Of a stretch of DNA of 64,000 bases, positions 1,006 through 18,705 are shown piece after piece. The notes under the pieces are model-generated. The model did no database searches. It saw only the letters and a program-made list of their open reading frames with translations, and had not been told where the DNA came from. Origin of the DNA: Pseudomonadota bacterium (GTDB lineage Bacteria > Desulfobacterota > Binatia > UBA9968); assembly GCA_021324155.1 (NCBI GenBank), contig JAJPJQ010000010.1, forward strand, positions 1 to 64,000. Direction: 5' to 3'. Every line of letters starts with the position of its first letter. Position 1 is the stretch's first letter. The position numbers and the translations under genes were made by a program.

Positions 1006-1884
1006 TCAATAATAGTAATATTTGGAGGAGATACCGAGCTCGGCGCCATTGAGAACTACTCCAACGATTTTATTTGACTTAAGAATATTCAGCGCCTCCG
1101 GTAGACAATCACGAGGGGTCTTACCGGCTCGAATGACCATTATGATTCCATCAACCTGTCTTGCTAAGACCAACGGATCGGACGTCGACAAAACAGGCGG
1201 ACTGTCGATAAGAATTTCGTGCCGCGAAAACATCAACCGTAGTTCTTTCATGAGGGCATCCATCCTTGCCGACCCCAACAACTCCGAAGAAACGCTCGTA
1301 GGTTTTCCAGCGGTGATAACTTCGAGTCCCGCAATGGATGTTTTCTGGACATAGTCCGTGATCTTGGCGTTCGAATTCGCTGTTAGATAGTCGCTGAGGC
1401 CGGGCGTCCGCGGGATGCGAAAGTAGTTGTGCAGTTGAGGGTTGCGCAAGTCACAGTCAATAAGGAGAACTTGTTCTTCATGATCCAATGCCACCGCCAC
1501 AGCTAGATTCGCTGAGACCGTGGATTTACCGTCGCGTTTAACCGGGCTTGTTATGGATAAGCAATGGGCATTCGTTTCGGTACGCAATCGCCGCAACTGT
1601 TCACGAAGTATTTTATATTGCTCACTAGCCGGAGAACCCTTTTCCAATGCTACTAGCGGATAGTTCTCATGGTTCCTGAGATCACGGCCGAAAAGAAACT
1701 CTTCGATCGTGTCACGCCATGAACGTATGGGAATCGCGCTCGAGCCGTTTTTTCCATTGTGATCAAACTTCTCCCTCGGAAAAACAACAGCAGCAGGAGC
1801 CAAGCGCGCCGCTTCTTCATGACCGCCAATCGTGTCATGGCGCTCTTGACGCGCTTTTTCCAAAGCTTCGAAAACTCTACTCAT
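1006..1884 (-). CDS. XrtA-associated tyrosine autokinase (BY-kinase)
   Basis: 292 residues, cytoplasmic. It starts MSRVFEALEKAR, the usual start of the kinase of XrtA/PEP-CTERM loci. Bacterial tyrosine kinase motifs are in order: Walker A about 112-122 (TSPVKRDGKST), Walker A' about 139-148 (VLLIDCDLRN), Walker B about 224-230 (ILIDSPP), and a C-terminal tyrosine cluster (four Tyr, 289-292) for autophosphorylation. Walker A is odd: the usual Gly or Ala at its start is missing, only GKST being conventional. In this family the kinase acts with the Wzz-like chain-length protein, encoded just upstream, by cycling phosphorylation to control polymer length and export. Same operon as neighbours on both sides. 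Confidence 0.9.
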   Translation of the reverse strand: MSRVFEALEKARQERHDTIGGHEEAARLAPAAVVFPREKFDHNGKNGSSAIPIRSWRDTIEEFLFGRDLRNHENYPLVALEKGSPASEQYKILREQLRRLRTETNAHCLSITSPVKRDGKSTVSANLAVAVALDHEEQVLLIDCDLRNPQLHNYFRIPRTPGLSDYLTANSNAKITDYVQKTSIAGLEVITAGKPTSVSSELLGSARMDALMKELRLMFSRHEILIDSPPVLSTSDPLVLARQVDGIIMVIRAGKTPRDCLPEALNILKSNKIVGVVLNGAELGISSKYYYY

Positions 1885-1953
1885 GAAACACCCCCAGCAT
1901 TCTTTCGGTAATATTCAACCAGGTAATGCGAAACGACTGTAATGATGTCATTG

Positions 1954-3498
1954 CTAATTGAGAAGATTTCCGAAAAACCGGATGACGACTGCTCCTACAA
2001 AGAGCATTCCAATTGATGCAAAAACCAGCATGCGCTGCGCGCGCCGTTGCTCAATTAAGCTGCCTCTTGTGATGACAGCCGGTATAGTGGCAAGAATCGG
2101 AAGGGGGATATTGTCTCTCAAATCTTCAGCGCGTTTGAATGAAGTGTCTAAAGTCTCACGGAGGAACGCCATTCCGACACCGGCGCCAAGCCCTAGGACA
2201 AGTCCGACGATGATAATTCGCGGGCGATTTGGGCCGATAGGTACTTGAGGCAAATTTGCCGGGTCGATTACGTTAAACTTTTCACCTTTGTCTTTCCGTT
2301 CCATATTTTCTGAGATTTGCGTTTCTAACGACTTGGCCTGCAGATCCTGATATTTTTTAAGAGTAATGTCGTAAACGCGGGTGATCTTTGAGAGCTCGAT
2401 AGCGCGAAGAGGGGTATTATCCACGCGCTTCTGATAATCGGCTATTTGAGATCGCAGCATGTCATTTTTGGATTTAAGGGCTGCTATCTCCAGTTTTAAA
2501 TCTTCTATTTGTGAGCTCAACATTTCTTTCAAAGACGCTCCAGGGGAGCTGGTCACAACCGGCCCGCTGCTGCCCGTGGCGGCGGATGTAGCTGATGCAG
2601 CCTGGGACTCCAGAGCGTCAATCTCTCGCTTTAGACGAATAACATCGGGATGTTTTGGGCTATATTGTCGGAGCATGATGTCCAACTCACGTTTTTTGCC
2701 TTCTAGTGATACGCTGCCCGTGATCTTCTGAGGATTCGCCCCGCCACTGCTGATGCCCGGGAGCATCGAATCAGCCATTGCAAGGATTTCCCATTCCGCA
2801 ATCTGCTTCTCCAGATTACCCTTTCGTTCCTGTAACGAGGTATAGCGAAGCATCCCCGACTCATACTCGCGGCGAAATTGATCAATGGTTCGAAGATTGG
2901 CATCCAGCTGCTCCGGCAATTCAGCGCGGTATTGTGCTTTGTATAAATTTACGGCTGATTCTTGGGTTTCAAGCTCTTTGCGAAGACGGTCGGCTTCCGA
3001 GTTGATGAAAGTCGCGGTTCCGGTGATTTGCTGCTGGCGCATCTGCTGAGTCGCATCAATGAAGATGGCGCCCAGACGCGCCGTGACATCCTTGGCCTTT
3101 TCCGGGCTCACGTCATCAAAGGAAAGAGCAAAGGCGTCAGTGCGGCGTATATCGAGTGCAATACGCTTCCGCAGCGTATCGACTCGCGTGTCTATGCGAC
3201 TCTGGTCGGGGTAGAGATTAAATTCCGCGACAATCCTCTGTAAATTAGGCCGACTTAAAATTTCATCGGAAATCTGGCGGACTCGCTGCTCGATGTTCAT
3301 AGGCGTTGACTGTGTAGCAACGTAGCCGGGCGGTAACTTAGGCGGAATAATTTGGATTAATGTGCGGGAGCGATAAACATCCGGTAAACTCCACGCCAGG
3401 TATACAGACAACGGAAAGATAACGACAAAAACCGCGATGGCGATACCTTTGTGGATGTAAAAGATGTTGAGCAGCTTCTTAATATCCAGCTCGTTCAT
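1954..3498 (-). CDS. XrtA-type polysaccharide chain-length determinant (Wzz-like)
   Basis: 514 residues. A short cytoplasmic N-terminus is followed by a membrane helix (about 17-36), a long periplasmic part rich in helices likely to form coiled coils (about 150-250 and 320-400), the proline-rich Wzz signature before the second helix (PQVPIGPNRP), a helix at about 427-445, and an additional C-terminal helix at about 490-508. This topology is that of the XrtA-system chain-length proteins, co-polymerases for the polysaccharide. The partner kinase is a separate gene immediately downstream. The ATG at 3498 follows a GGAG-type ribosome site. Function inferred from family and neighbours. Confidence 0.88.
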   Translation of the reverse strand: MNELDIKKLLNIFYIHKGIAIAVFVVIFPLSVYLAWSLPDVYRSRTLIQIIPPKLPPGYVATQSTPMNIEQRVRQISDEILSRPNLQRIVAEFNLYPDQSRIDTRVDTLRKRIALDIRRTDAFALSFDDVSPEKAKDVTARLGAIFIDATQQMRQQQITGTATFINSEADRLRKELETQESAVNLYKAQYRAELPEQLDANLRTIDQFRREYESGMLRYTSLQERKGNLEKQIAEWEILAMADSMLPGISSGGANPQKITGSVSLEGKKRELDIMLRQYSPKHPDVIRLKREIDALESQAASATSAATGSSGPVVTSSPGASLKEMLSSQIEDLKLEIAALKSKNDMLRSQIADYQKRVDNTPLRAIELSKITRVYDITLKKYQDLQAKSLETQISENMERKDKGEKFNVIDPANLPQVPIGPNRPRIIIVGLVLGLGAGVGMAFLRETLDTSFKRAEDLRDNIPLPILATIPAVITRGSLIEQRRAQRMLVFASIGMLFVGAVVIRFFGNLLN

Positions 3499-3561
3499 AT
3501 GTAGTTCTCCGATCGGAGCGTACAGGTTATAAGCGCGGTCTGGGACAGGATTGGGACGGAA

Positions 3562-4167
3562 CTAGGGAACGATGACGCGGTCGCCCGGCTTGAGCACGAT
3601 GTCCTGCTTCAGATCACCTTTCATAATAGCCTCGTAATCGACGATAAATTCCGTCACGCTATTACCTTCCCGGCGAATCACTTTGATGTCGTGGAGTTCG
3701 GCGAACAAGGTTAAGCCACCGGCTCGGGTCAGTATCTGTAACACGGTATCATTGCCGGTCGCGGGATACGGCGCCGGCTTGGCAACCTGCCCGACCACAA
3801 AAATTTCGCTTGAAGTAATGTTCGTGACACGAATGGTGACGAAAGGACTGCTAATGAACTCCTGATACTTTTGCTCGAGAGTTTTTCTCAGCTCAGCGGT
3901 CGTCAAACCGGACGCGCGCACTTCGTTCACGAGTGGAAGCGTTACAAATCCGTCTGGACGTACTTTGACAGGGCCCGACAATGCGGGTTCCTTCCAGATG
4001 ACGACTTCAAGGTTGTCGCCCGGACCCACAACATAAAACTCGTCCGAAGGTTTGGCCGGATTGGGGGTGTCAACAGGGACCTGGTAGCGTTGGACGCGAA
4101 GATCTTTCGTGCCACAAGCAGTGAGAAACAGCAAAATGGCCAGAAATAGTATACTGGCTATTCTCAT
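3562..4167 (-). CDS. Polysaccharide export lipoprotein (Wza-like, XrtA type)
   Basis: 201 residues from the ATG at 4167, chosen over an upstream in-frame ATG (4191) because AAAGGAG lies six bases before it and because the protein then begins with a proper lipoprotein signal: hydrophobic helix and lipobox LTAC with Cys18. The mature part has the Poly_export domain (FYVVGPGDNLEVVIWKEP, about 44-61) and a SLBB-like domain (IFVVGQVAKPAPYP), ending in KPGDRVIVP. Such proteins form the outer-membrane part of the export channel. It is short compared with E. coli Wza (about 380), which is usual for XrtA loci. Same operon as the chain-length gene downstream. Confidence 0.9.
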   Translation of the reverse strand: MRIASILFLAILLFLTACGTKDLRVQRYQVPVDTPNPAKPSDEFYVVGPGDNLEVVIWKEPALSGPVKVRPDGFVTLPLVNEVRASGLTTAELRKTLEQKYQEFISSPFVTIRVTNITSSEIFVVGQVAKPAPYPATGNDTVLQILTRAGGLTLFAELHDIKVIRREGNSVTEFIVDYEAIMKGDLKQDIVLKPGDRVIVP

Positions 4168-4273
4168 AGATACTCCTTTGCGCCCGTGCAACTTACGCGG
4201 TACAGACCTTTGGCTAATTCGTGAGAAAACGACCCGCCGTAATGGCGAGTAAACCGGCGACTGATCTAAATCG

Positions 4274-5752
4274 TCACTGCTGAAGAGGCGTGGATGACTG
4301 AGGACTATCGGATTCCGGCAACGGAGCGGGAAAAGCCGGACTTCCCATAGTTGGCGTCATAAACGGATCAATCGGAGCTCGCGAGAACCCGCTTCTGGGA
4401 TAAACATCAAAGTGCATCGACAAAGAAAGTGAGACCTGGCCGCCTTGCATCTTTCCTTGCGTCACATCCTTCGAGGCATGCCTGCTGACGTCGTGCGTAT
4501 CTGTCCCACGGTAACCGTAAATAAGCTTCGACGACAACCAGCTCATAAACCAATATTCGGCTCCTGCGCCAACGCGAAAGATTTTTGATTTCGCGTCCTC
4601 GGAATCGAAAAGAGTAAACTCGGCGCCGGCGCCGGCTCGCAACCGCTCTGTCAGACGAATAACAAAAGCCGTCGGAAAAGATGTTACCTGGGCGGGGCCT
4701 CTGGAAATCCCAAAGCTGTTGCTCAGCTCTCTCCGGGCGGCAATACTGAAGGTTGCAGTGGGCCAAAGCTTGATCAAAGTCAGGTTAGCGTTGCCGCCGA
4801 GCCCAGGTCCGTGATCGCTAGTATTTAGGGCGACGCCGCCCCCCCCGGAAAGCGTCAATGTCGGGGTTAATTGAAGATTGAGACGTCTATAAGCGGTAAA
4901 AAAATCGTCGCCGAAATCGAACGAGTGTAGTACGTCCGATCCGCCGCGGCTCGAATTGAGAAAGGTAATCCTATATCCCGCGTGGATATTATGATTTAGG
5001 CGCCATTGATAGACACCGCGAAAACCAAAGGAATTAGACAGCTCGTTGCCATCGGAAGTGTTCGAATAGGAGTTTTCATAGCCACCTGATATCGATAAAT
5101 TAGAGGTCGCGAGCCACGCGCCGCGAATGCTGAGAGTATTGGAGAGGGTCCGTCCTTTTGTCAGCAGCGGCCCAACATCCGCAAGAACGCTAACAGGCTC
5201 GTATGTGCCGCCGGCGGGAAACATTGTCGGGGTACTCGGCAACGCTGAGGGGTACGCATCATCCATGCCCGGCGTATGAGTATCGCCGCCGCGCCTGGCG
5301 GTATCCGCCACAAAAAAAGTCAATTTGGGAGAATAACGATAGATATAACTCGCATCGAAGGAAATATTATCACCGAAGTTGTTCCGCTCGCTGTGCTGCG
5401 CAAAGATCTGACCGGTGGCGCTCAGCCTGCTGATAAACGTCGGAGTTGTTTGCAAGGGCGGAGCATACAAAAAAGTAAACGTGGGGACGACGTAGGTTAT
5501 GAAGTCAGATTGTCTAGGATGTTCAAAACGGATATTGTCATCGTAAGCTTCTCCGGTAGTCACCGATGCTCCGACGGCAAAACCGGCATCCGCACGGCGC
5601 GCGGACGCGAACGCCCAGCAGAAAACGAACGCGAGTACGAGCGCTGCGCGCTGGTTCGAAGCCAACCAGCGCGAAAGGCACGTGAGACACAGAAAAAAAG
5701 AAGGAGACCTAGCGACGCGCGGCTTAAACTTTGGCCGGCAATCCAAGCACAT
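4274..5752 (-). CDS. XrtA/PEP-CTERM-associated outer-membrane beta-barrel protein
   Basis: 492 residues. Hydrophobic signal (about 36-52, ALVLAFVFCWAFASA) after an unusually long Cys- and Arg-containing leader, so the true start may be an internal codon. The rest alternates amphipathic strands with aromatic and Gly/Ser turns (FITYVVPTFTFLYAPP, TLSIRGAWLATSNLSISGGY, VSLSLSMHF), as in the TIGR03016 family of outer-membrane proteins that accompany XrtA polysaccharide loci; TGEAYDDNIRF near the mature N-terminus is typical of it. The C-terminal 40 residues are Pro- and Ser-rich rather than a closing strand. Its probable role is in polymer secretion or assembly. Position between ATPase and export lipoprotein fits. 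Confidence 0.82.
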   Translation of the reverse strand: MCLDCRPKFKPRVARSPSFFLCLTCLSRWLASNQRAALVLAFVFCWAFASARRADAGFAVGASVTTGEAYDDNIRFEHPRQSDFITYVVPTFTFLYAPPLQTTPTFISRLSATGQIFAQHSERNNFGDNISFDASYIYRYSPKLTFFVADTARRGGDTHTPGMDDAYPSALPSTPTMFPAGGTYEPVSVLADVGPLLTKGRTLSNTLSIRGAWLATSNLSISGGYENSYSNTSDGNELSNSFGFRGVYQWRLNHNIHAGYRITFLNSSRGGSDVLHSFDFGDDFFTAYRRLNLQLTPTLTLSGGGGVALNTSDHGPGLGGNANLTLIKLWPTATFSIAARRELSNSFGISRGPAQVTSFPTAFVIRLTERLRAGAGAEFTLFDSEDAKSKIFRVGAGAEYWFMSWLSSKLIYGYRGTDTHDVSRHASKDVTQGKMQGGQVSLSLSMHFDVYPRSGFSRAPIDPFMTPTMGSPAFPAPLPESDSPQSSTPLQQ

Positions 5753-5817
5753 AGGGCAGAAGTTAACATAGTCCTAGATTAGCATGCAAATAGGTGAAGA
5801 GCCTGATGCGGGCCGGG

Positions 5818-7551
5818 TCACCTACTTTTCGCAATCGGGCTCTCCGTCGAAGCAATCCATTTGTTTGCTACGGCGGTCTCCCATGCGCGCTCGGATGCCT
5901 GCTGATTTTTTAACCCGCGAATCTCAACCCGATAAAGCATGACCTTGGGAGAGATTTGGCGTTGGGAGATTGTAGGCTCGTAACCTTTTGCCGTTACCGC
6001 CTTGCTGAACCGCTCAGCCTCCTGCCGTTTCGAAAACGCATCGAGCACAAGAGAATAGGTGTCATCCGATTGACGGCGCAGCAGAGTGTCGCGCGTCAAC
6101 GGGGGGACAGAAAGATTCTGGCCCGCGACGATCCAGTTGACATCTTCGATTCCGGGATTCGCCTCTTTGAGAATGTCCATTGCCAGCAGCATTTTTTTCT
6201 GACCGTATGCTTCCGAGGCGATGCGGCTGATTGTGGTGCCCCATGAAACCACAACAGCCTTATTCTGCTCATCCGACGATTTTGTCGTCTCAGCGGTCGC
6301 CGGCTCTGAACCGAGGACGGACGCCTGTTGTGGAACGGCCATTTCAGTCTTTGCAATGGCCGCTTCGACTTGACGCGCGGTTGGTTCATTGCTAGCCGCC
6401 GGGCGGGCTTCGGACGCAATAGGCTCATGTTGCGACGAGCCTGCGCTCGACGTCTTTGCGGCCAGTCTGATCCGCGCCAGAAAATCGGACCACCAACCGA
6501 GGCCATCGGCTTGATAAAGAAATACAGCGGCAAGTACAAGGATGAGTACGGAGAATGTGGCGGTTCCAAAAATCGCGGGACGTCTCCCGTCTCCTTCGCG
6601 ACTGGATTCATCGCTCTTCGCCGGGAGCATTGCTTCGCTTGAATCGGCTCTCGCCATGATAATGGGGCTCGGCTGTACAGGCACCCGGCTCGCGAATGGC
6701 GCCTCCGCTACGGGTGCCGGAGCAGGAGCTTCGGGCAACCGACGCTCCTCTGTAAGACTGAGATCGTTCGCCACCTCTTGGACCATTTCCGCGGAGACCT
6801 TGGTTTCGGAGGAGGCGTAAGCGATCAGCAAAGCATTGTCGCAAAGAATGTTGATCAATCGGGGAATGCCGCGGGAATACAACGCGACTGCCTGGATAGC
6901 TTCACGGGTGAAGAGCTCGCGGTCATAGCCGGCAACGTGGAGGCGGTGCTGAATAAAAGGGCCGACTTCGCGTTCCTTTAGCCGATCGAGGCGGCAATGG
7001 AGAGCGACGCGTTGTTTTATCTGCCGGAGCTGCGGTTGACTGAGCTTCGTATCGAGTTCGGTTTGGCCGACCAGAACGATCTGCAAAAGCTTCTCGGTCG
7101 GTGTCTCAAGATTAGAAACGAGGCGGAGGTTTTCAAGGACATCATCGGTGAGATTTTGCGCTTCGTCTACCAGCAAAACCACGGTTCCGCCGCGAACGGA
7201 TTGCCGCATTAAAAATTCGTTCAGCGCGCGGATCTTCTCGAGTCGCCCGGCGCCCCTCACGTCAAGGCGTAGCTCATCGCAGGCAAAGCTGACCAACTCC
7301 TCGAAGCTCAGTGTCGTGTTGTAAAAAAAGACATACCGGACATCCTCCTCCGGTTCGCTCATCAGGCGCCGGAGCAAGGTGGTTTTCCCCGTTCCGACTT
7401 CTCCTGTCAGGACAATGAAACCTTTCCGCTCCCGAATGCCGTACAGCAGGCTTGCGTAAGCCTCCTGATAGACGGGATTCTCATAAAAGTATTTCGGATC
7501 GGGCGTTACGTTAAAAGGTTTTTCCCTGAAACCAAAGTACTCGTTGTACAT
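5818..7551 (-). CDS. XrtA-associated AAA ATPase with LysM-like and SPOR-like C-terminal domains
   Basis: 577 residues from the ATG at 7551 (MYNEYFGFREKPFNVTPDP), the standard start of ExeA/GspA-like ATPases of XrtA loci; an in-frame ATG at 7638 with a plausible ribosome site would add 29 non-conserved residues. The AAA domain has Walker A GEVGTGKT (50-57) and Walker B VVLLVDE (124-130). After a Pro/Ala-rich linker comes one membrane helix (about 327-345), a LysM-like stretch (about 433-483, TTISRIASEAYG and LSVP) and a SPOR-like stretch (about 497-570). The layout puts the ATPase in the cytoplasm and a peptidoglycan-binding part in the periplasm, suggesting anchoring of the secretion machine to the wall. 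ATPase call secure; domain calls of the tail are by pattern. Confidence 0.85.
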   Translation of the reverse strand: MYNEYFGFREKPFNVTPDPKYFYENPVYQEAYASLLYGIRERKGFIVLTGEVGTGKTTLLRRLMSEPEEDVRYVFFYNTTLSFEELVSFACDELRLDVRGAGRLEKIRALNEFLMRQSVRGGTVVLLVDEAQNLTDDVLENLRLVSNLETPTEKLLQIVLVGQTELDTKLSQPQLRQIKQRVALHCRLDRLKEREVGPFIQHRLHVAGYDRELFTREAIQAVALYSRGIPRLINILCDNALLIAYASSETKVSAEMVQEVANDLSLTEERRLPEAPAPAPVAEAPFASRVPVQPSPIIMARADSSEAMLPAKSDESSREGDGRRPAIFGTATFSVLILVLAAVFLYQADGLGWWSDFLARIRLAAKTSSAGSSQHEPIASEARPAASNEPTARQVEAAIAKTEMAVPQQASVLGSEPATAETTKSSDEQNKAVVVSWGTTISRIASEAYGQKKMLLAMDILKEANPGIEDVNWIVAGQNLSVPPLTRDTLLRRQSDDTYSLVLDAFSKRQEAERFSKAVTAKGYEPTISQRQISPKVMLYRVEIRGLKNQQASERAWETAVANKWIASTESPIAKSR

Positions 7552-7696
7552 AGGTTGGCCCCGAATGTAAGGAGATCTACTCTGGGGGAGGACGATAAAG
7601 AACGCGAACGGGAAAGACTTTCTTCTGGCGGCGGACATAGCTCCGCCACCTAGGGCTGGGCCCGGTTTTAAAAAACGCTAAGAAAACAAAAAGTTC

Positions 7697-8266
7697 TCAG
7701 GCGTGCGCCTGAGGCGTACAATCTTCCAAATTAAAGAGATTGGATTTGGAAGATTCGGCAACCCAGCCGGAATTTAAAAACCGCAACGGCACTTCGACGT
7801 TGACGTCGCGGCTCAATAATCGCATTAGAATCTTGACGCGATCCTTGGCACCCGGCGGCTCCTGGATGATTCCGGCAAGCCCCGCGAAGGGCCCGCCCGT
7901 AATCTGCACCTCTTGACCCTTGCGCAAATCAGAACGTGCCGAGATCATTCCGTCGGGCGTTCCCTGTGCTTTAAGAAAAGAGATTACAGCGTCATCAATG
8001 GGAGCCGGAGTTCCGTTGAAACTAACTACGCGGTTCACGCCAGGCGTCCATATAATGGCTTGATACTGAGCTGCATCATTGATTTGGGTAAAAAGATAGC
8101 TCGGGAATAGGGGAACAACTCGTTTGCGCTTCTGTAAGGATACGGGAAATAAAAGCTTCGGAAGAAAAACCTCTACCCCTCTATGCCGGAGGCAGAATTC
8201 CGCGAATTCCTCTTTCTGAGGCTTGGAATACACCACATACCACTTCTTCGCTTCTATGCTGCTCAT
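7697..8266 (-). CDS. NusG/RfaH-family transcription antiterminator
   Basis: 189 residues. NusG N-terminal domain at about 8-105 (KKWYVVYSKPQKEEFAEFCL, PLFPSYLFTQ) and KOW domain at about 114-165 (LRKGQEVQITGGPFAGLAGI). This is a specialised NusG paralogue of RfaH/UpxY/LoaP type rather than housekeeping NusG: it is the first gene of a polysaccharide operon, with no ribosomal or secE genes nearby. Its likely job is to suppress pausing and early termination in the long operon it heads. Translation starts at ATG 8266, about 27 bases after the transcription start predicted from the sigma-54 promoter at 8305-8320. Confidence 0.9.
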   Translation of the reverse strand: MSSIEAKKWYVVYSKPQKEEFAEFCLRHRGVEVFLPKLLFPVSLQKRKRVVPLFPSYLFTQINDAAQYQAIIWTPGVNRVVSFNGTPAPIDDAVISFLKAQGTPDGMISARSDLRKGQEVQITGGPFAGLAGIIQEPPGAKDRVKILMRLLSRDVNVEVPLRFLNSGWVAESSKSNLFNLEDCTPQAHA

Positions 8267-8304
8267 AAAATCCTACGGTTCTGACTGGAGTATCCTTCGC
8301 AGAG

Positions 8305-8320
8305 AGCAATAGAGGTGCCA
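8305..8320 (-). promoter_or_regulatory. Sigma-54 promoter of the polysaccharide operon
   Basis: On the minus strand the sequence is TGGCACCTCTATTGCT: a full match to the sigma-54 consensus TGGCAC-N5-TTGC[AT], with GG and GC separated by exactly 10 bases. It ends 39 bases before the start codon of the NusG-like gene, which puts the transcription start about 27 bases before the ATG. XrtA polysaccharide loci in other bacteria are known to use RpoN with the PrsK/PrsR two-component system, so location and sequence agree. Confidence 0.85.
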
Positions 8321-8416
8321 TGATTTCCATCCGTCTAGCATGCAAGTAAGTCATTGAAAAATTAGGAATCTAACGGGCACGGCCCGATATCGTAGGATGA
8401 GTGCTTAATACGTATC

Positions 8417-8430
8417 GGGCATTTATGCCC
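8417..8430. promoter_or_regulatory. Palindrome GGCA-N4-TGCC, candidate activator site 1
   Basis: Perfect inverted repeat GGGCATTTATGCCC, centred about 109 bases upstream of the near edge of the sigma-54 promoter. Shares the core GGCA-N4-TGCC with the palindrome at 8483-8500. Distance suits binding of a sigma-54 enhancer-binding dimer such as PrsR. Identity of the protein is inferred. Confidence 0.5.
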
Positions 8431-8482
8431 AACGCCTGACCAAAATCTTTGTATGCAGGCCCTTTCTCGTTGCAGTTGATTT

Positions 8483-8500
8483 TCAGGCACAAATGCCTGA
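8483..8500. promoter_or_regulatory. Palindrome GGCA-N4-TGCC, candidate activator site 2
   Basis: Perfect inverted repeat TCAGGCACAAATGCCTGA with the same GGCA-N4-TGCC core as the site at 8417-8430. The centres are 68 bases apart (about 6.5 helical turns). Two copies of one palindrome class at enhancer distance from a sigma-54 promoter suggest cooperative activator sites. Confidence 0.5.
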
Positions 8501-8639
8501 TTGGGCAGGTATTACCCGGATATAAGTAAATAAGAAAGCAGCGGCCAAATCAGCTTTGGAGTTTGTTTTCTCGCATCTTCTGAACAATACAGAGGATTCT
8601 AAGAAGATGAAGTTTCGCTGAAATGGAGATTTTCATATC

Positions 8640-9011
8640 CTATCGGCCGCTTCTCAGCGGCATTACCCGCCAGCGACCATAAGCTACAAAGGCAGCGAGG
8701 ACTCCCGTGACGAGCGGGATCAAAACTAGCGCGCCGCCGCCTATCATGAGTGTGATGACGCAGGCGCCGATCATGATGACGACTAAGCCGACGGCGGAGA
8801 GCGGCGTGAGATCAGTTTTCTTGCTGAAGAGGCCCGGCAGGATCAGACCCAAACCCCCGAGCACCTCCGCGGCGCCGATGAAGTGCAAAAACCATCCCGG
8901 CAGCGACATCTGTTTCGTCATCTCCTCGACCGGGGTAACGAATTTCATTACGCCGGAGAATAAAAATTCCACCGCCAGAAGAACCTGTACGATCCACAGA
9001 ACGATATTCAT
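8640..9011 (-). CDS. DoxX-family membrane protein
   Basis: 123 residues from ATG 9011, preceded by GGAGGG at about seven bases; a GTG five codons earlier is less likely. Four hydrophobic segments: about 4-24, 42-60, 72-92 and 95-112. Motifs are those of the DoxX/DoxD-like group (LLAVEFLFSGVMKF near the N-terminus, IGAAEVLGGLGLI in helix 2). DoxX proteins are small inner-membrane proteins linked to redox stress or thiol metabolism; precise function unknown. Last gene of the long DGPF operon, 30 bases after the SRPBCC gene. Confidence 0.85.
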   Translation of the reverse strand: MNIVLWIVQVLLAVEFLFSGVMKFVTPVEEMTKQMSLPGWFLHFIGAAEVLGGLGLILPGLFSKKTDLTPLSAVGLVVIMIGACVITLMIGGGALVLIPLVTGVLAAFVAYGRWRVMPLRSGR

Positions 9012-14705: not shown

Positions 14706-15977
14706 TTATTTTAAATCCGCCAGCCGCCGCTCGAGGAACCGGCGCTCCGGGCCCTGCTGCGCGAGCGCCAACGCCCGTTTGTAGGATGCCCGCGCTTCCG
14801 TCGTTCGCCCGAGACGCCGGCACAGGTCGGCGCGCGCCGCATGCGCCAAGTGGTAATCCGACAGGTCGCCGCCGGACATGATCGCATCGATGAGCGCAAG
14901 GCCGGCCGCGGGGCCGTCGCGCATCGCCACGGCGACCGCCCGATTGAGCTCGACGACCGGCGAGCGCTCGGCGCGTAAAAGCACATCGTAGAGCGCGACG
15001 ATCCTGGCCCAATCGGTCGCGTCCGCCGTCGGCGCGTTGGCGTGCACCGCGGCGATCGCCGCCTGAACGGTGTACGCGCCGAAACCCCGCGATGCGAGCG
15101 CGCGCTCGACGAGCGCCGAGCCTTCGGCGATCTGATCGCGATTCCACAGCGAGCGGTCTTGCTCGTCGAGCAGGATCAATTCGCCGTCCGGCGTGCTGCG
15201 CGCGGCGCGACGCGATTCATGCAGCAGCATCAACGCGAGCAAGCCGTCCGCTTCCGGCTCGGGCAGGAGCTCGATCAAAAGTCGCCCGAGCCTGATCGCT
15301 TCGCTCGAAAGATCGTGGCGCGTCACCGCCGCGCCGCTCGACGCGGAATAGCCCTCGTTGAAGACGAGATAGACCACGCGCAGCACCGCATCGAGGCGCT
15401 CGGGCAGATCGGCGCGTCCCGGAACTTCGTAGGGAATGCGCGCGCTCTTAATTTTCGCCTTGGCGCGCACGATCCGCTGCGCGAGCGTCGGCGCGGGCAG
15501 CAAAAACGCGCGCGCGATCTCTTCGGTGGTTAGTCCGCAGATTTCGCGCAGCGTGAGCGCCACCTGGGCCTCCGGCGCAAGCGCCGGGTGGCAGCAGGTG
15601 AAAATGAGCCGCAGCCGGTCGTCGCCGACGGCCTCGCCGTCGAAGGACGCCGGGTCGCCGTCGTCGGCGGCGACCCGCTCGTGCATATCGTCGGGCAGCG
15701 GCTCGACGCGCTTCTGACGCCGGAGCGCGTCCAGCGCCTTGAAACGGCCGGTCGAGACGAGCCATGCGCGCGGATTCTCCGGCACGCCGTCGCGCGGCCA
15801 CTGCTCCAGCGCCGCGCGAAACGCTTCCGCCAGCGCCTCTTCCGCGCGATCGAAATCGCCGAGCAGGCGAATCAGCGTCGCGAGCACACGGCGGGATTCG
15901 TCGCGGTAGAGGGCGTCGATCGTGTCGCGGACGTCAACATCGCCGACGGCGGTTATTTTTCCGGATAGTTTGTCCAT
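14706..15977 (-). CDS. ECF42-type RNA polymerase sigma factor with C-terminal TPR-like extension
   Basis: 423 residues from ATG 15977 (MDKLSGKITAV). Sigma region 2 at about 20-90 (ALYRDESRRVLATLIRLLGD, ALEQWPRDGVPENPRAWLVS), region 4 at about 135-180 (LREICGLTTEEIARAFLL, LAQRIVRAKAKI), then about 240 residues of alpha-helical extension containing TPR-like segments (VELNRAVAVAMRDGPAAGLALID, ALALAQQGPERRFLERRLAD). This extension and the neighbouring DGPF genes define ECF42, which lacks an anti-sigma factor and is thought to be controlled through the extension. An upstream in-frame ATG at 16052 is rejected because the intervening codons read like the tail of a dead GFA gene. Confidence 0.9.
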   Translation of the reverse strand: MDKLSGKITAVGDVDVRDTIDALYRDESRRVLATLIRLLGDFDRAEEALAEAFRAALEQWPRDGVPENPRAWLVSTGRFKALDALRRQKRVEPLPDDMHERVAADDGDPASFDGEAVGDDRLRLIFTCCHPALAPEAQVALTLREICGLTTEEIARAFLLPAPTLAQRIVRAKAKIKSARIPYEVPGRADLPERLDAVLRVVYLVFNEGYSASSGAAVTRHDLSSEAIRLGRLLIELLPEPEADGLLALMLLHESRRAARSTPDGELILLDEQDRSLWNRDQIAEGSALVERALASRGFGAYTVQAAIAAVHANAPTADATDWARIVALYDVLLRAERSPVVELNRAVAVAMRDGPAAGLALIDAIMSGGDLSDYHLAHAARADLCRRLGRTTEARASYKRALALAQQGPERRFLERRLADLK

Positions 15978-15994
15978 GGGAGCACTGCTAGAGA

Positions 15995-16121
15995 CTGCGC
16001 CGACCTTTACGATCTTGAACCACGACGGATTCGCTCCTTCGAGGCGATGCATTGATCGCGGCGGTCCCGACGCAGTTCCGCGCCTTGCCGGAGCGCGTCC
16101 GATTGATTCTCATGCGCAGAA
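15995..16121 (-). pseudogene. Remnant of a GFA-family gene (3' end)
   Basis: Read on the minus strand, this stretch encodes in one frame RLEGANPSWFKIVKVG, closely like the C-terminus of the intact GFA protein at 18785-19132 (CLEGLEPSSLKIVKVDG), and the DNA is visibly alignable over about 70 bases (GCGATCAAyGC, CCTCGAAGGA, CCGTCGT, AAGATCGT, AAGGT shared). Further upstream TTCTGCGCATGA and CGGACGCGCTCCGG recall the FCxxCG and FGRAP parts of the family but with stops and frame changes. I read it as a decayed paralogue left beside the ECF42 gene. Confidence 0.6.
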
Positions 16122-16286
16122 GATCGCGGCTTGGTTCAATTTGTTCGGAATGAGCGCAATTATTACGAGCCTTCATAGATTCTTCTTTAAACGATTCTAT
16201 TTTCACCTCCTCTTCCTCTACATTCCTGTTTGCGCCTTATTTAGACCGTACGAAAAAAATTTATATCAACGCGCGATGATTTTTTA

Positions 16287-16314
16287 TTGACAGTTTATAT
16301 AACCTGATTATAAT
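16287..16314 (+). promoter_or_regulatory. Strong sigma-70 promoter of the S74 protein gene
   Basis: Consensus TTGACA (16287-16292), 16-base spacer, consensus TATAAT (16309-16314), 30 bases before the start codon at 16345. The surrounding 100 bases are AT-rich. Both hexamers are perfect, which suggests strong constitutive transcription. Confidence 0.8.
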
Positions 16315-16344
16315 GTCCGATTTTAATCAAGCTAGGAGGTGCTT

Positions 16345-18705
16345 ATGTTTTTCTTTGTCTCCGCGGCACGATGGTTGTTTTGGGTATCGGTTTTCTGTGT
16401 TATTTTTGTGAGTGCCGCTAGAGCCGAGAATCGGGCTTTTGTCTCGAACGACTTCGAGTTTTCTGAGGCTACTTATTTACTACAATTTAGCACTGCCACA
16501 CGCAACGACCTCGACAAGATGCAAGTCGTACTTCCCGTCGGCATGCTCCAAAACGGGGTGAACGTTCGCAGCGTGATTGTCGCAGGTAAGCCGGTTAAAG
16601 AATCCGACGTATCTATTGCCAATACAGACGAGCACGATACGATTTTAATCGATATCGCGAAAACGACGGCAGTAAAACCAGGCACAGAAATTCAAATCGA
16701 AATTTTCGGAATTAAAAACCCGGAGGCCGGGGATTATGCGATAGATGTTGTGCTCATCGGGAGCGGCAATCTCGCCCTCGAAACAACCTCTGTCCCACTA
16801 AGTATCTCACCAGCACTATCATTCGCCGCCGATTCAGTGGACGACGTTGGCACGAAAGCCAAAGTCAAGCCCCCGAAACCGGACATCAGCAGTGTCATCG
16901 CTGGCACGGGTCTTAGCGGCGGCGGCCTTACCGGCGATGTTACCTTATCCGTAAATACGTCGACGATTCAGGCGCGCGTTACAGAAGATTGCGGCGCCGG
17001 CAGCGCTCTGCGCTCCATCAACTCGAACGGCACCGGCGTTTGCGAAAGTTTCACGGCCGGCACGGGCGATATTACAGATGTCATAGCCGGCACGGGGCTC
17101 ACGGGGGGAGCATCCAGTGGAGCGGCGACACTGAGCGTGGCGCCGCTGGGCATCACCTCTGGGCTGATCGCGGACGGAGCGGTAGGCCTGGCTAAGCTGG
17201 GTGGGGATTCGGTGGATTCCAGCAAGATCGTGGACGGATCGATCGGTTCAGCCGACGTGGACGTCGGTCAAATTCAGTCACGTGTCAGTGGAAACTGCGC
17301 CACCGGAAGTGCGATCAGAGTTGTTAATCAAAATGGAACGGTAACCTGCGAAAGTCTCGGAGATATCACAGGCGTTATAGCCGGCACAGGTCTGACTGGC
17401 GGCGCAACGAGTGGCGACGCGACCTTATCAGTCGCGTCATCGTTTCAGTTGCCGCAAAGCTGCGCCAATAACCAAATACCCAAATGGACCGGATCGGCTT
17501 GGAACTGCGCCGCCGACGACAATTCCGCGACGGTTTCCGGCAATAACACAGCCGTTGGAGGTAGCGCGCTAATTAACAATACAACGGGTACAAACAATTC
17601 TGCCTTTGGTTTTCATGCGTTGACCAACAACACAGCCGGTTTCGATGGCACGGCTACAGGATTCAACGCCTTGGCTAACAATACAACCGGTGAAGCCAAT
17701 ACCGCCGTAGGCGCCAGAGCACTCTTCAACAACACCACCGGCCGACGCAATACCGCTATGGGTCATGACGCCCTATTTAGCAATACGCTCGGCATTTTTA
17801 ATACCGGCATCGGGCACGAGGCATTGTTCAATAACACACTCGGTAATGATAACACATCTATTGGTTTTCAATCGCTGTTTAACAATACTAATGGTTTCGA
17901 AAATACCGCGACCGGAGAAAAAGCGTTGTTGAATAACACCACGGGTTCGCAGAATAGTGCCACTGGAAACAGTGCGCTTGAAGGCAATACGCTGGGCGAT
18001 CACAATACCGCCATGGGGCATAATTCGCTCTCCGGCAATATTGATGGTGACGATAACGCCGCTCTTGGCCGAAACGCGCTTAAGACGAATACTCACGGCA
18101 GCAACAACACCGCCATAGGCGCTTCGGCGGACGTTTCCACCACAAGCCTCAGTAATGCCACGGCGATCGGTTTCGGAGCTGTCGTCGATGCGAGCAACAA
18201 AATGCGCTTAGGCAATGGCTCAGTGACACTTGTGGAAACGGCCGCCAATCTAAAGGTGGGTGACGGTTCTGGTGGTTTCGGCTGTGTCGTTGACGATACA
18301 GATACGGTAATCGCGGGCGTCTGCTCCTCAGACGCGCGGTTGAAGACCGACATCACGCCTTTTGTTCCAATGCTCGACCAAGTCGTCCAACTTCAGCCTG
18401 TGCATTTTCGCTGGAATGGCGCGCAGCATCCGGAACTTAATTTATCCACCGCCAAGAGTTTTGGCTTGATCGCGCAAGAAGCCGAGAAAATTCTTCCAGA
18501 ACTCGTAACGCAGGAGGATGCTCGCGGCTACAAAGCCGTCCGCTACAATCTACTTCCTTTTCTTCTCCTCCAGGCGTTAAAGGAGCAGCAGGCGCTTATT
18601 CAACGGCAGCAGGCGGAAAACGCCATGTTGAAACTGAGGCTCGACGCACTGGATAAGGACGTACGACGGCTGTCGCAGATAACCTCTGCATCAGCTTCGA
18701 AGTAA
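16345..18705 (+). CDS. Secreted repeat protein with C-terminal S74 (endosialidase chaperone) domain
   Basis: 786 residues from ATG 16345, five bases after AGGAGG. Signal peptide about 1-25 (WVSVFCVIFVSAARA). Domain order: an N-terminal beta-rich domain (about 26-170); three related segments of the form VIAGTGLTGGATSGDATLSV; eleven 17-residue repeats (about 411-597) of the form NNTTGxxNTAxGxxALx; then a peptidase-S74/chaperone domain from about 655 with SDARLKTDI (Ser662, the self-cleavage type serine) and FGLIAQEAEKILPELV, ending in a coiled coil (LIQRQQAENAMLKLRLDAL). Such proteins trimerise into fibres, and the S74 part then cuts itself off. Known from phage tail spikes, but no phage genes are near, so a cell-surface or released fibre is likely. 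Its base composition is less GC-rich than that of the flanking genes. Confidence 0.85.
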   Translation: MFFFVSAARWLFWVSVFCVIFVSAARAENRAFVSNDFEFSEATYLLQFSTATRNDLDKMQVVLPVGMLQNGVNVRSVIVAGKPVKESDVSIANTDEHDTILIDIAKTTAVKPGTEIQIEIFGIKNPEAGDYAIDVVLIGSGNLALETTSVPLSISPALSFAADSVDDVGTKAKVKPPKPDISSVIAGTGLSGGGLTGDVTLSVNTSTIQARVTEDCGAGSALRSINSNGTGVCESFTAGTGDITDVIAGTGLTGGASSGAATLSVAPLGITSGLIADGAVGLAKLGGDSVDSSKIVDGSIGSADVDVGQIQSRVSGNCATGSAIRVVNQNGTVTCESLGDITGVIAGTGLTGGATSGDATLSVASSFQLPQSCANNQIPKWTGSAWNCAADDNSATVSGNNTAVGGSALINNTTGTNNSAFGFHALTNNTAGFDGTATGFNALANNTTGEANTAVGARALFNNTTGRRNTAMGHDALFSNTLGIFNTGIGHEALFNNTLGNDNTSIGFQSLFNNTNGFENTATGEKALLNNTTGSQNSATGNSALEGNTLGDHNTAMGHNSLSGNIDGDDNAALGRNALKTNTHGSNNTAIGASADVSTTSLSNATAIGFGAVVDASNKMRLGNGSVTLVETAANLKVGDGSGGFGCVVDDTDTVIAGVCSSDARLKTDITPFVPMLDQVVQLQPVHFRWNGAQHPELNLSTAKSFGLIAQEAEKILPELVTQEDARGYKAVRYNLLPFLLLQALKEQQALIQRQQAENAMLKLRLDALDKDVRRLSQITSASASK
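17575..18135 (+). repeat. Eleven tandem 51-bp units coding 17-residue repeats
   Basis: Exactly 11 x 51 bp, in frame, inside the S74 protein. Each unit codes NNTxGxxNTAxGxxALx; first unit NNTTGTNNSAFGFHALT, last TNTHGSNNTAIGASADV. Units differ widely at DNA level, so the array is old and not prone to slippage. The pattern suits a beta-helix or beta-roll in a trimeric fibre. Confidence 0.9.

Follow-up and report, generated by a model that had tools for sequence, protein, structure and literature searches.

A candidate two-tier switch before a polysaccharide-export operon: paired upstream dyads, a sigma-54 promoter and a NusG paralogue with an ops-like element

A polysaccharide-export operon in the 64,000-nucleotide stretch of DNA analyzed here (the window) is probably governed by a two-tier switch, in which an activator-gated sigma-54 start is followed by the loading of a NusG paralogue. 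According to this model, an NtrC-type response regulator encoded on contig C27 would bind a pair of dyads that lie some 130 and 200 bp upstream. Once bound, it would make the sigma-54 polymerase open the promoter at 8305-8320. The first product would be a NusG/RfaH-type paralogue. A polymerase that has moved past the paralogue gene would then meet a small hairpin and the pause-like string GGCGGAGCTATG (7636-7647), where the paralogue would load on that same polymerase and block termination through the long export operon. That two levels of control might be coupled here was already the reading of the original prediction; the candidate site of the second tier, GGCGGAGC, was absent from it and is added by our analysis. 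By a narrow balance we also favor a class-wide module, in which the NtrC-type activator and its dyads co-evolve and the paralogue loads in cis at its own dialect of ops, i.e. the hairpin plus GGCGGAGCTATG. What is most novel here is a candidate element for recruiting a NusG paralogue that resides in its own operon. If the model is true, the operon joins activator-gated initiation to elongation control.

The features of the first tier and the gene that follows them are:

8483-8500, minus strand: predicted distal activator dyad TCAGGCATTTGTGCCTGA, matching TCRGGCA-N4-TGCCYGA at 14 of 14 positions
8415-8432, minus strand: predicted proximal activator dyad TTGGGCATAAATGCCCGA, matching the same pattern at 13 of 14 positions, with half-site TGCCCGAT
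8320-8305, minus strand: predicted sigma-54 (-24/-12) promoter TGGCACCTCTATTGCT, from the sequence match, the presence of RpoN and equivalents in relatives
7697-8266, minus strand: operon-resident NusG/RfaH-type paralogue of 189 aa with NusG and KOW domains

Read along the minus strand, on which the operon lies, the order is distal dyad (8500-8483), proximal dyad (8432-8415), TGGCACCTCTATTGCT (8320-8305) and the ATG of the paralogue (8266). As first predicted, the 3' end of the sigma-54 match lies 39 nt from this ATG, and the two palindromes, whose letters had been given on the plus strand, were found upstream of it, as GGGCATTTATGCCC (core at 8418-8429) and TCAGGCACAAATGCCTGA (core at 8486-8497), 68 bp from center to center. 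The transcript start is estimated near 8294 from the -12 position, which would put the dyad centers near -129 and -197.

TGGCACCTCTATTGCT has the top score (17.94) of an approximate sigma-54 matrix, both the GG at -24 and the GC at -12 are present, and the genome encodes RpoN. The bare patterns are not enriched genome-wide, with 14 matches of TGGCAC-N5-TTGC vs. 11 of the control and 79 places for GGCA-N4-TGCC vs. 104 for the reversed control; a random genomic distribution of the palindrome had been named as one refuting outcome, and the meaning of both patterns hence rests on comparison with relatives. A search at E<=1e-25 among 148 genomes of the class detects the paralogue in 33, giving 37 loci in all. 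Within 200 nt upstream, 23 of these 37 loci, the window locus included, possess a sigma-54 site that scores 12 bits or more, and all 23 sites begin 31-60 nt ahead of the estimated start of the paralogue gene; a strong site at that place occurs in 1.6% of about 4000 random windows. Fourteen of the 37 loci have no site of at least 12 bits before the paralogue. In three genomes (G112, G114, G115a) a 14.8-bit site stands ahead of the ATPase gene, which there precedes the paralogue. In other taxa, none of 29 paralogue loci with upstream sequence reaches 12 bits, the highest score being 11.3 (L136). Comparison of the sequences thus gives the predicted initiation tier strong support.

The dyads are more informative than their core. 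Their general form is TCGnnCA-N4-TGnnCGA; of the paired operator first proposed, the paired activator sites are supported, and GGCA-N4-TGCC turned out to describe only part of the site. The core occurs four times in the 64-kb window (shuffle mean 0.96; as many in 1 of 100 shuffles), and a further pair, 99 bp apart, lies elsewhere in the genome on C20. The full 14-base dyad, at 12 of 14 positions or better, also gives four matches in 64 kb, two of which are the sites at 8415-8432 and 8483-8500. It is this full match together with the conservation in relatives, not the bare core, that places the dyads above chance. Upstream of the loci with a strong sigma-54 site, TGC[AC]CGAT is present in 16 of 23, each time as a single copy with the same orientation (400 Markov null sets average 0.5 and peak at 3); the 14 loci without a 12-bit site are excluded from this count. 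The conservation that the original prediction had set as its own test is therefore found for promoter and half-site alike. The motif strings were picked after viewing the sequences; the unbiased top upstream 8-mer occurs in 11 of 23 loci (null maximum 8), which answers this bias for the half-site only partly. Among spacers of 0-12 bp, 4 bp gives the best left-arm fit for 33 half-sites (3.33 of 7 vs. 0.73-2.52). The window locus has the best dyad pair (14/14 and 13/14); at 11 of 14 or better, G008b has two copies and G035 three. Exact half-sites are absent in G008a, G012, G011b, G021 and G100. The spacing of 68 bp corresponds to about 6.5 turns, which is unusual for cooperating sites and counts against the model. 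A class-wide search for TGCMCGAT 60-120 nt before TGGCAY-N5-TTGC yields 24 matches vs. 3 for the reversed control; it is weak alone, because half of the loci read (10 of 20) fall within long open frames, and two precede a paralogue (the window genome, G000, and G008b). Chance palindromes beside a chance sigma-54 match would agree with the lack of genome-wide enrichment of either bare pattern, but the position, orientation and geometry conserved in relatives make this reading extremely improbable. Terminator hairpins were also considered for the dyads and rejected, as no run of T follows them on either strand.

What binds the dyads can be approached through the genes that accompany the paralogue. 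In 19 of the 37 loci, the gene for an NtrC-type activator is found no more than about 4 kb away from it. The best match of this activator in the window genome, at C27:165527-167080, scores 466.6 bits vs. 356.2 for the next; it comprises a receiver, a sigma-54 AAA+ domain with GAFTGA and a Fis-type helix-turn-helix, and it is unlinked to the operon, on a different contig. When 11 first-look candidates per genome are scored, the activator is present at E<=1e-140 in 24 of the 33 paralogue genomes and in 29 of the 115 others (p 1e-6, uncorrected for kinship). Nine paralogue genomes lack such a match; in six of them all candidates were scored (G036, G097 and G111 lie outside this deeper search), and each of the six has one stand-out match of 46-50% identity. 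G021 additionally possesses an activator fragment of the clade-A type, with 82% identity. In a tree of 40 rows, several of them on long branches and without the G012 activator, which is cut off before the DNA-binding domain, the family is split from two outside rows, PrsR of G008 and the C15 regulator of G000, with support 100/99. The six stand-out best matches form clade B (100/100), and clade C is weak as a group (74/49).

Half-site and activator clade agree. TGCCCGAT is found in 5 of 7 clade-B loci (none in G008a and G021) and TGCACGAT in 10 of the 11 clade-C loci with an activator found, while each is absent from the loci of the other clade. G036, in which the activator was not found, has TGCACGAT too and is counted apart from clade C. 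This contrast between B and C is close to one divergence. Clade A is mixed, with TGGCCGAT in G014 and G011a and B-like dyads in G012, G011b and G141. The recognition helix reads VDVKTLYRKM in the window genome and VDAATLHRKM in clade C; as VDTKTLYRKM is common to G035 (clade B, TGCCCGAT) and G014 (clade A, TGGCCGAT), single residues cannot be assigned to half-sites. If the pairing of activators and sites is true, it offers a natural series of dialects for studying how NtrC-type specificity changes. The identification of the C27 protein as the activator appears reasonable, if indirect. The unlinked position of its gene and the many NtrC-type proteins in the genome leave some room for another regulator at the dyads, be it a repressor or one of the other first-look activator candidates (about 78 in all), so that only the promoter would matter. 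Since the half-site tracks the clade of the C27-type activator, whose gene is located close to that of the paralogue in about half of the loci, we regard this as unlikely and infer that the C27 activator pairs with the dyads.

Beyond the paralogue, the operon continues with the following genes:

5818-7551, minus strand: ATPase of the XrtA-cluster type (TIGR03015, 278.8 bits, under the cut-off of 324.5)
4274-5752, minus strand: 492-aa conserved protein that Pfam and NCBIfam (E 0.001) assign to no family
3562-4191, minus strand: polysaccharide export outer-membrane protein (Poly_export, SLBB)
1954-3498, minus strand: chain-length determinant of the GNVR type (TIGR03007, 274.4 bits, just under the cut-off of 278.85)
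1006-1884, minus strand: polysaccharide tyrosine autokinase (TIGR01007 over the cut-off, TIGR03018 under it)

The far part of the operon is not seen, because the left edge of the window is the end of the contig. The 492-aa protein has a 39.5% identical counterpart in G008, where it likewise is a neighbor after the paralogue. The original prediction had set these genes in the frame of XrtA loci under PrsK and PrsR. Membership in the PEP-CTERM/XrtA sigma-54 regulon, under PrsK/PrsR control, would account for the resemblance of the ATPase, chain-length, export and kinase proteins to XrtA-cluster families, and the promoter-gene distance of 39 nt is within the published range (PMC1569441). However, all four XrtA-type matches (TIGR03015, TIGR03007, TIGR03027, TIGR03018) remain under their cut-offs, and exosortase (TIGR02602) has 0 matches in the window genome, which is 98.13% complete. 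The search for prsK and prsR that had been suggested yields neither over the cut-off among the candidates scored: the best PrsR match has 426.7 bits vs. 502.6 for TIGR02915 (32 of 65 first-look candidates scored), the best PrsK match 142.7 bits vs. 300 for TIGR02916 (22 of 58). The PrsR motif, as given in the available part of the source, is a 17-nt motif 1 ending in TTTACA before the sigma-54 site (PMC1569441); TTTACA and TGTAAA are both absent in 8267-8640. Exosortase and PrsK are over the cut-off only in G008 and G035 among 39 genomes searched. On the basis of the sub-cut-off scores and the missing exosortase match, control by PrsK/PrsR/XrtA was rejected as very unlikely; judged from sequence, the activator is likely another NtrC-type regulator, encoded on another contig, and the operon (1006-8266) is better called an exopolysaccharide export operon. 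On contig C331 of G008 (L069, L230), exosortase, PrsK, PrsR and the new activator occur together; the two systems can therefore coexist.

The first gene of the operon had been described as a NusG paralogue, and its product indeed contains NusG and KOW domains, with RfaH as the best PDB match. It is called a paralogue because two further NusG-like matches exist in the genome. Its scores stay under the cut-offs of both RfaH (TIGR01955, 105.3 vs. 144.5 bits) and LoaP (NF033641, 54.7 vs. 125 bits). At the places of RfaH residues, among them the ops contacts K10, H20 and R73, read from alignments, K10 is Lys and invariant in alignment A1, H20 is His in the consensus and Cys in the window paralogue, R73 is Pro and E48 is Gln. 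An AF2 model shows the KOW domain as beta (strands 119-122, 131-136, 143-150 and 153-160; mean pLDDT 85.1); as one prediction from 19 sequences, it may overlook a second fold. The paralogue is thus predicted to be without the alpha-helical autoinhibitory KOW domain of RfaH and not to switch folds. A monomorphic, operon-linked class of NusG paralogues is described in a 2026 preprint (PMC13015549), which the beta KOW domain resembles, here as an AF2 prediction. If the model is true, the element described below would recruit a resident paralogue that, by prediction, keeps one fold.

Two features follow the paralogue gene:

7653-7663, minus strand: small hairpin GGGC-CCA-GCCC, ending 5 nt ahead of the element, weak alone (p 0.09 vs. 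shuffles)
7636-7647, minus strand: ops-like GGCGGAGCTATG in the ATPase leader, a candidate element for recruitment and pausing

In the 260 nt after the paralogue stop, GGCGGAGC is the top 8-mer, present in 30 of 36 loci and in all eight families (f1 8/8, f6 2/3, f7 3/3, f8 5/6, f11 3/4, f12 5/6, f13 2/3, f14 2/3); the counts cover 36 of the 37 loci, G011b, which ends 5 nt after the gene, being omitted. As every 8-mer was counted, this answers the concern that the string was picked after viewing the sequences. Sixty shuffles reach at most 9. They understate shared ancestry, because the top 8-mer of the coding-region control, at 14 of 36, exceeds the shuffled maximum; 30 is still far above it. 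The extended 15-mer at 7633-7647 is the sole copy in the window genome. The E. coli ops element, GGCGGTAGCGTG, has its pause at U11 before G12 (PMC5995543). With it our element shares GGCGG and the T11-G12 pause register, position 11 being a pyrimidine in 29 of 30 loci and position 12 G in 20 and A in 9; the center is AGCTA vs. TAGCG in ops. Hence the flanks agree with ops while the center differs. In other taxa, GGCGGAGC is downstream of the paralogue in none of 31 loci (31 of 56 loci read), and L117 has it 113 nt upstream of its paralogue. Canonical ops, GGCGGTAGCGTGCC, follows the gene of an RfaH-like paralogue by 158 nt in L101 (Parashewanella, 5666-5679) and by 216 nt in L088 (a gammaproteobacterium), and this matching place supports GGCGGAGCTATG as the lineage's own form of ops.

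Other functions of the element have to be weighed against recruitment. With promoter and activator as proposed, GGCGGAGC could act on how the next gene is translated or its RNA processed, since it includes GGAG and some loci have an ATG 2 nt later. That is quite unlikely, as positions 9-11 vary (T/C; A/G/T; T/C/A), the gene after the element differs between loci, canonical ops takes the corresponding position in two other-taxon relatives, and the ATPase start in the window is about 85 nt beyond. This start is MYNEYFGFREKPFNVT at 7551, not 7638, as homologs indicate; the longest ATPase frame opens inside the element, and automatic calls may therefore misplace the start. Alternatively, the paralogue could be recruited by the RNA hairpin in front, in the manner of LoaP, which binds an RNA hairpin required for activity and is helped by a downstream pause (PMC12691694); GGCGGAGC would then be merely a pause. 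A hairpin is often ahead of the element, as in the LoaP leader: a stem of at least 3 bp and of varying sequence precedes it by 2-6 nt in 29 of 30 loci (none in G037), and the summed hairpin energies have a z of -4.8 vs. mononucleotide shuffles, the rows not being independent. Yet many stems are weak (p<=0.1 in only 9 of 30 loci), and a sequence that varies and is weak or missing in several loci, next to a fixed GGCGGAGC, renders recruitment by the hairpin distinctly improbable. We infer recruitment, pausing and antitermination at GGCGGAGCTATG as the preferred reading; for the elongation tier as a whole, conservation is strong and the mechanism, as judged from sequence, plausible. In the window (7630-7647) and in G115a, the element can pair with the bases that follow (GGCGGA-N6-TCCGCC), and most other loci form no full stem. 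No known RNA family matches in 7400-8700 of the window or in four loci. Copies of GGCGGAGCTRTRNCC were also considered as targets in trans and rejected: of 21 matches in 148 genomes only 7 lie beside a paralogue, and none of six reference operon proteins is found within about 1.5 kb of the other 14. The string is locally placed and not enriched genome-wide, because the reversed control gave more matches.

Nla24 of Myxococcus xanthus is an NtrC-type activator tied to exopolysaccharide genes, as is proposed here for the C27 protein. To our knowledge, no NusG-paralogue tier has been described for NtrC-type exopolysaccharide activators of this kind. The PEP-CTERM sigma-54 regulon (Haft et al. 2006, PMC1569441) is alike in its NtrC-type regulator, its upstream motif with a sigma-54 site and its polysaccharide-linked genes; here, the activator clade and the motif are others, no exosortase is detected, and the target operon is led by a NusG paralogue. 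With RfaH/ops of E. coli (PMC5995543) our system has in common a NusG paralogue, the GGCGG start, T11-G12 in the pause register of ops and Lys at the K10 place, and it differs in the AGCTA center, Pro at the R73 place, the gene within its own operon, the predicted beta KOW domain and the sub-cut-off score. LoaP is a NusG paralogue adjoining its target operon, with a hairpin and a pause in the leader, and it recognizes a UNCG-type RNA hairpin (PMC12691694), whereas here an ops-like string is conserved and the hairpin varies. In UpxY, TaA and the Shewanella CL7 group (PMC7593976, PMC7819879), the gene for the paralogue is part of its presumed target operon or adjacent to it; the present case is set apart by a candidate recruitment element that is conserved and by a predicted activator-dependent promoter. 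For NusG paralogues encoded inside their target operons, a 2020 paper (PMC7593976) called the way they find the right polymerase unknown; an RNA hairpin has since been tied to LoaP (PMC12691694). An 8-base element conserved in 30 of 36 loci makes such recruitment testable on short DNA templates. A literature search by title and abstract, with most subscription papers outside it, revealed no paper that describes the pairing of sigma-54 and activator with a NusG paralogue, and a search for the letters of the element found none.

The activator genes themselves offer some further observations. In the 20 kb surrounding the C27 activator, there is no dyad of at least 12/14 and no sigma-54 site of at least 13 bits. 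In relatives, 23 sigma-54 sites (>=12 bits) lie near activator genes, and TGCMCGAT is upstream of none of them. Ten of the 23 were inspected visually and 7 scored, with G130, G014 and G006 omitted from the scoring. Near activator genes, the clade-C dyad reaches 14/14 in G146, 13/14 in G147, 11 and 12 in G101 and 9 and 9 in G095, and the clade-B dyad 12 of 14 in G141. The dyads of G146 and G147 end in TGCACGAG; in both genomes (L239:4846-4977; L240, minus strand), dyad and strong sigma-54 site stand before a 91-aa frame that precedes the activator gene, and such dyads could possibly provide feedback on the activator operon. The C27 activator gene is preceded by genes for a kinase-like protein with PAS domains, for a nucleotide-sugar dehydrogenase and for an epimerase. 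The kinase-like partner (L227:11105-12202) has PAS domains and no HATPase match in Pfam, and it may be divergent. Two 4'-phosphopantetheinyl transferase genes (L227:12452-13249 and 15783-16613) flank the nucleotide-sugar genes by the activator.
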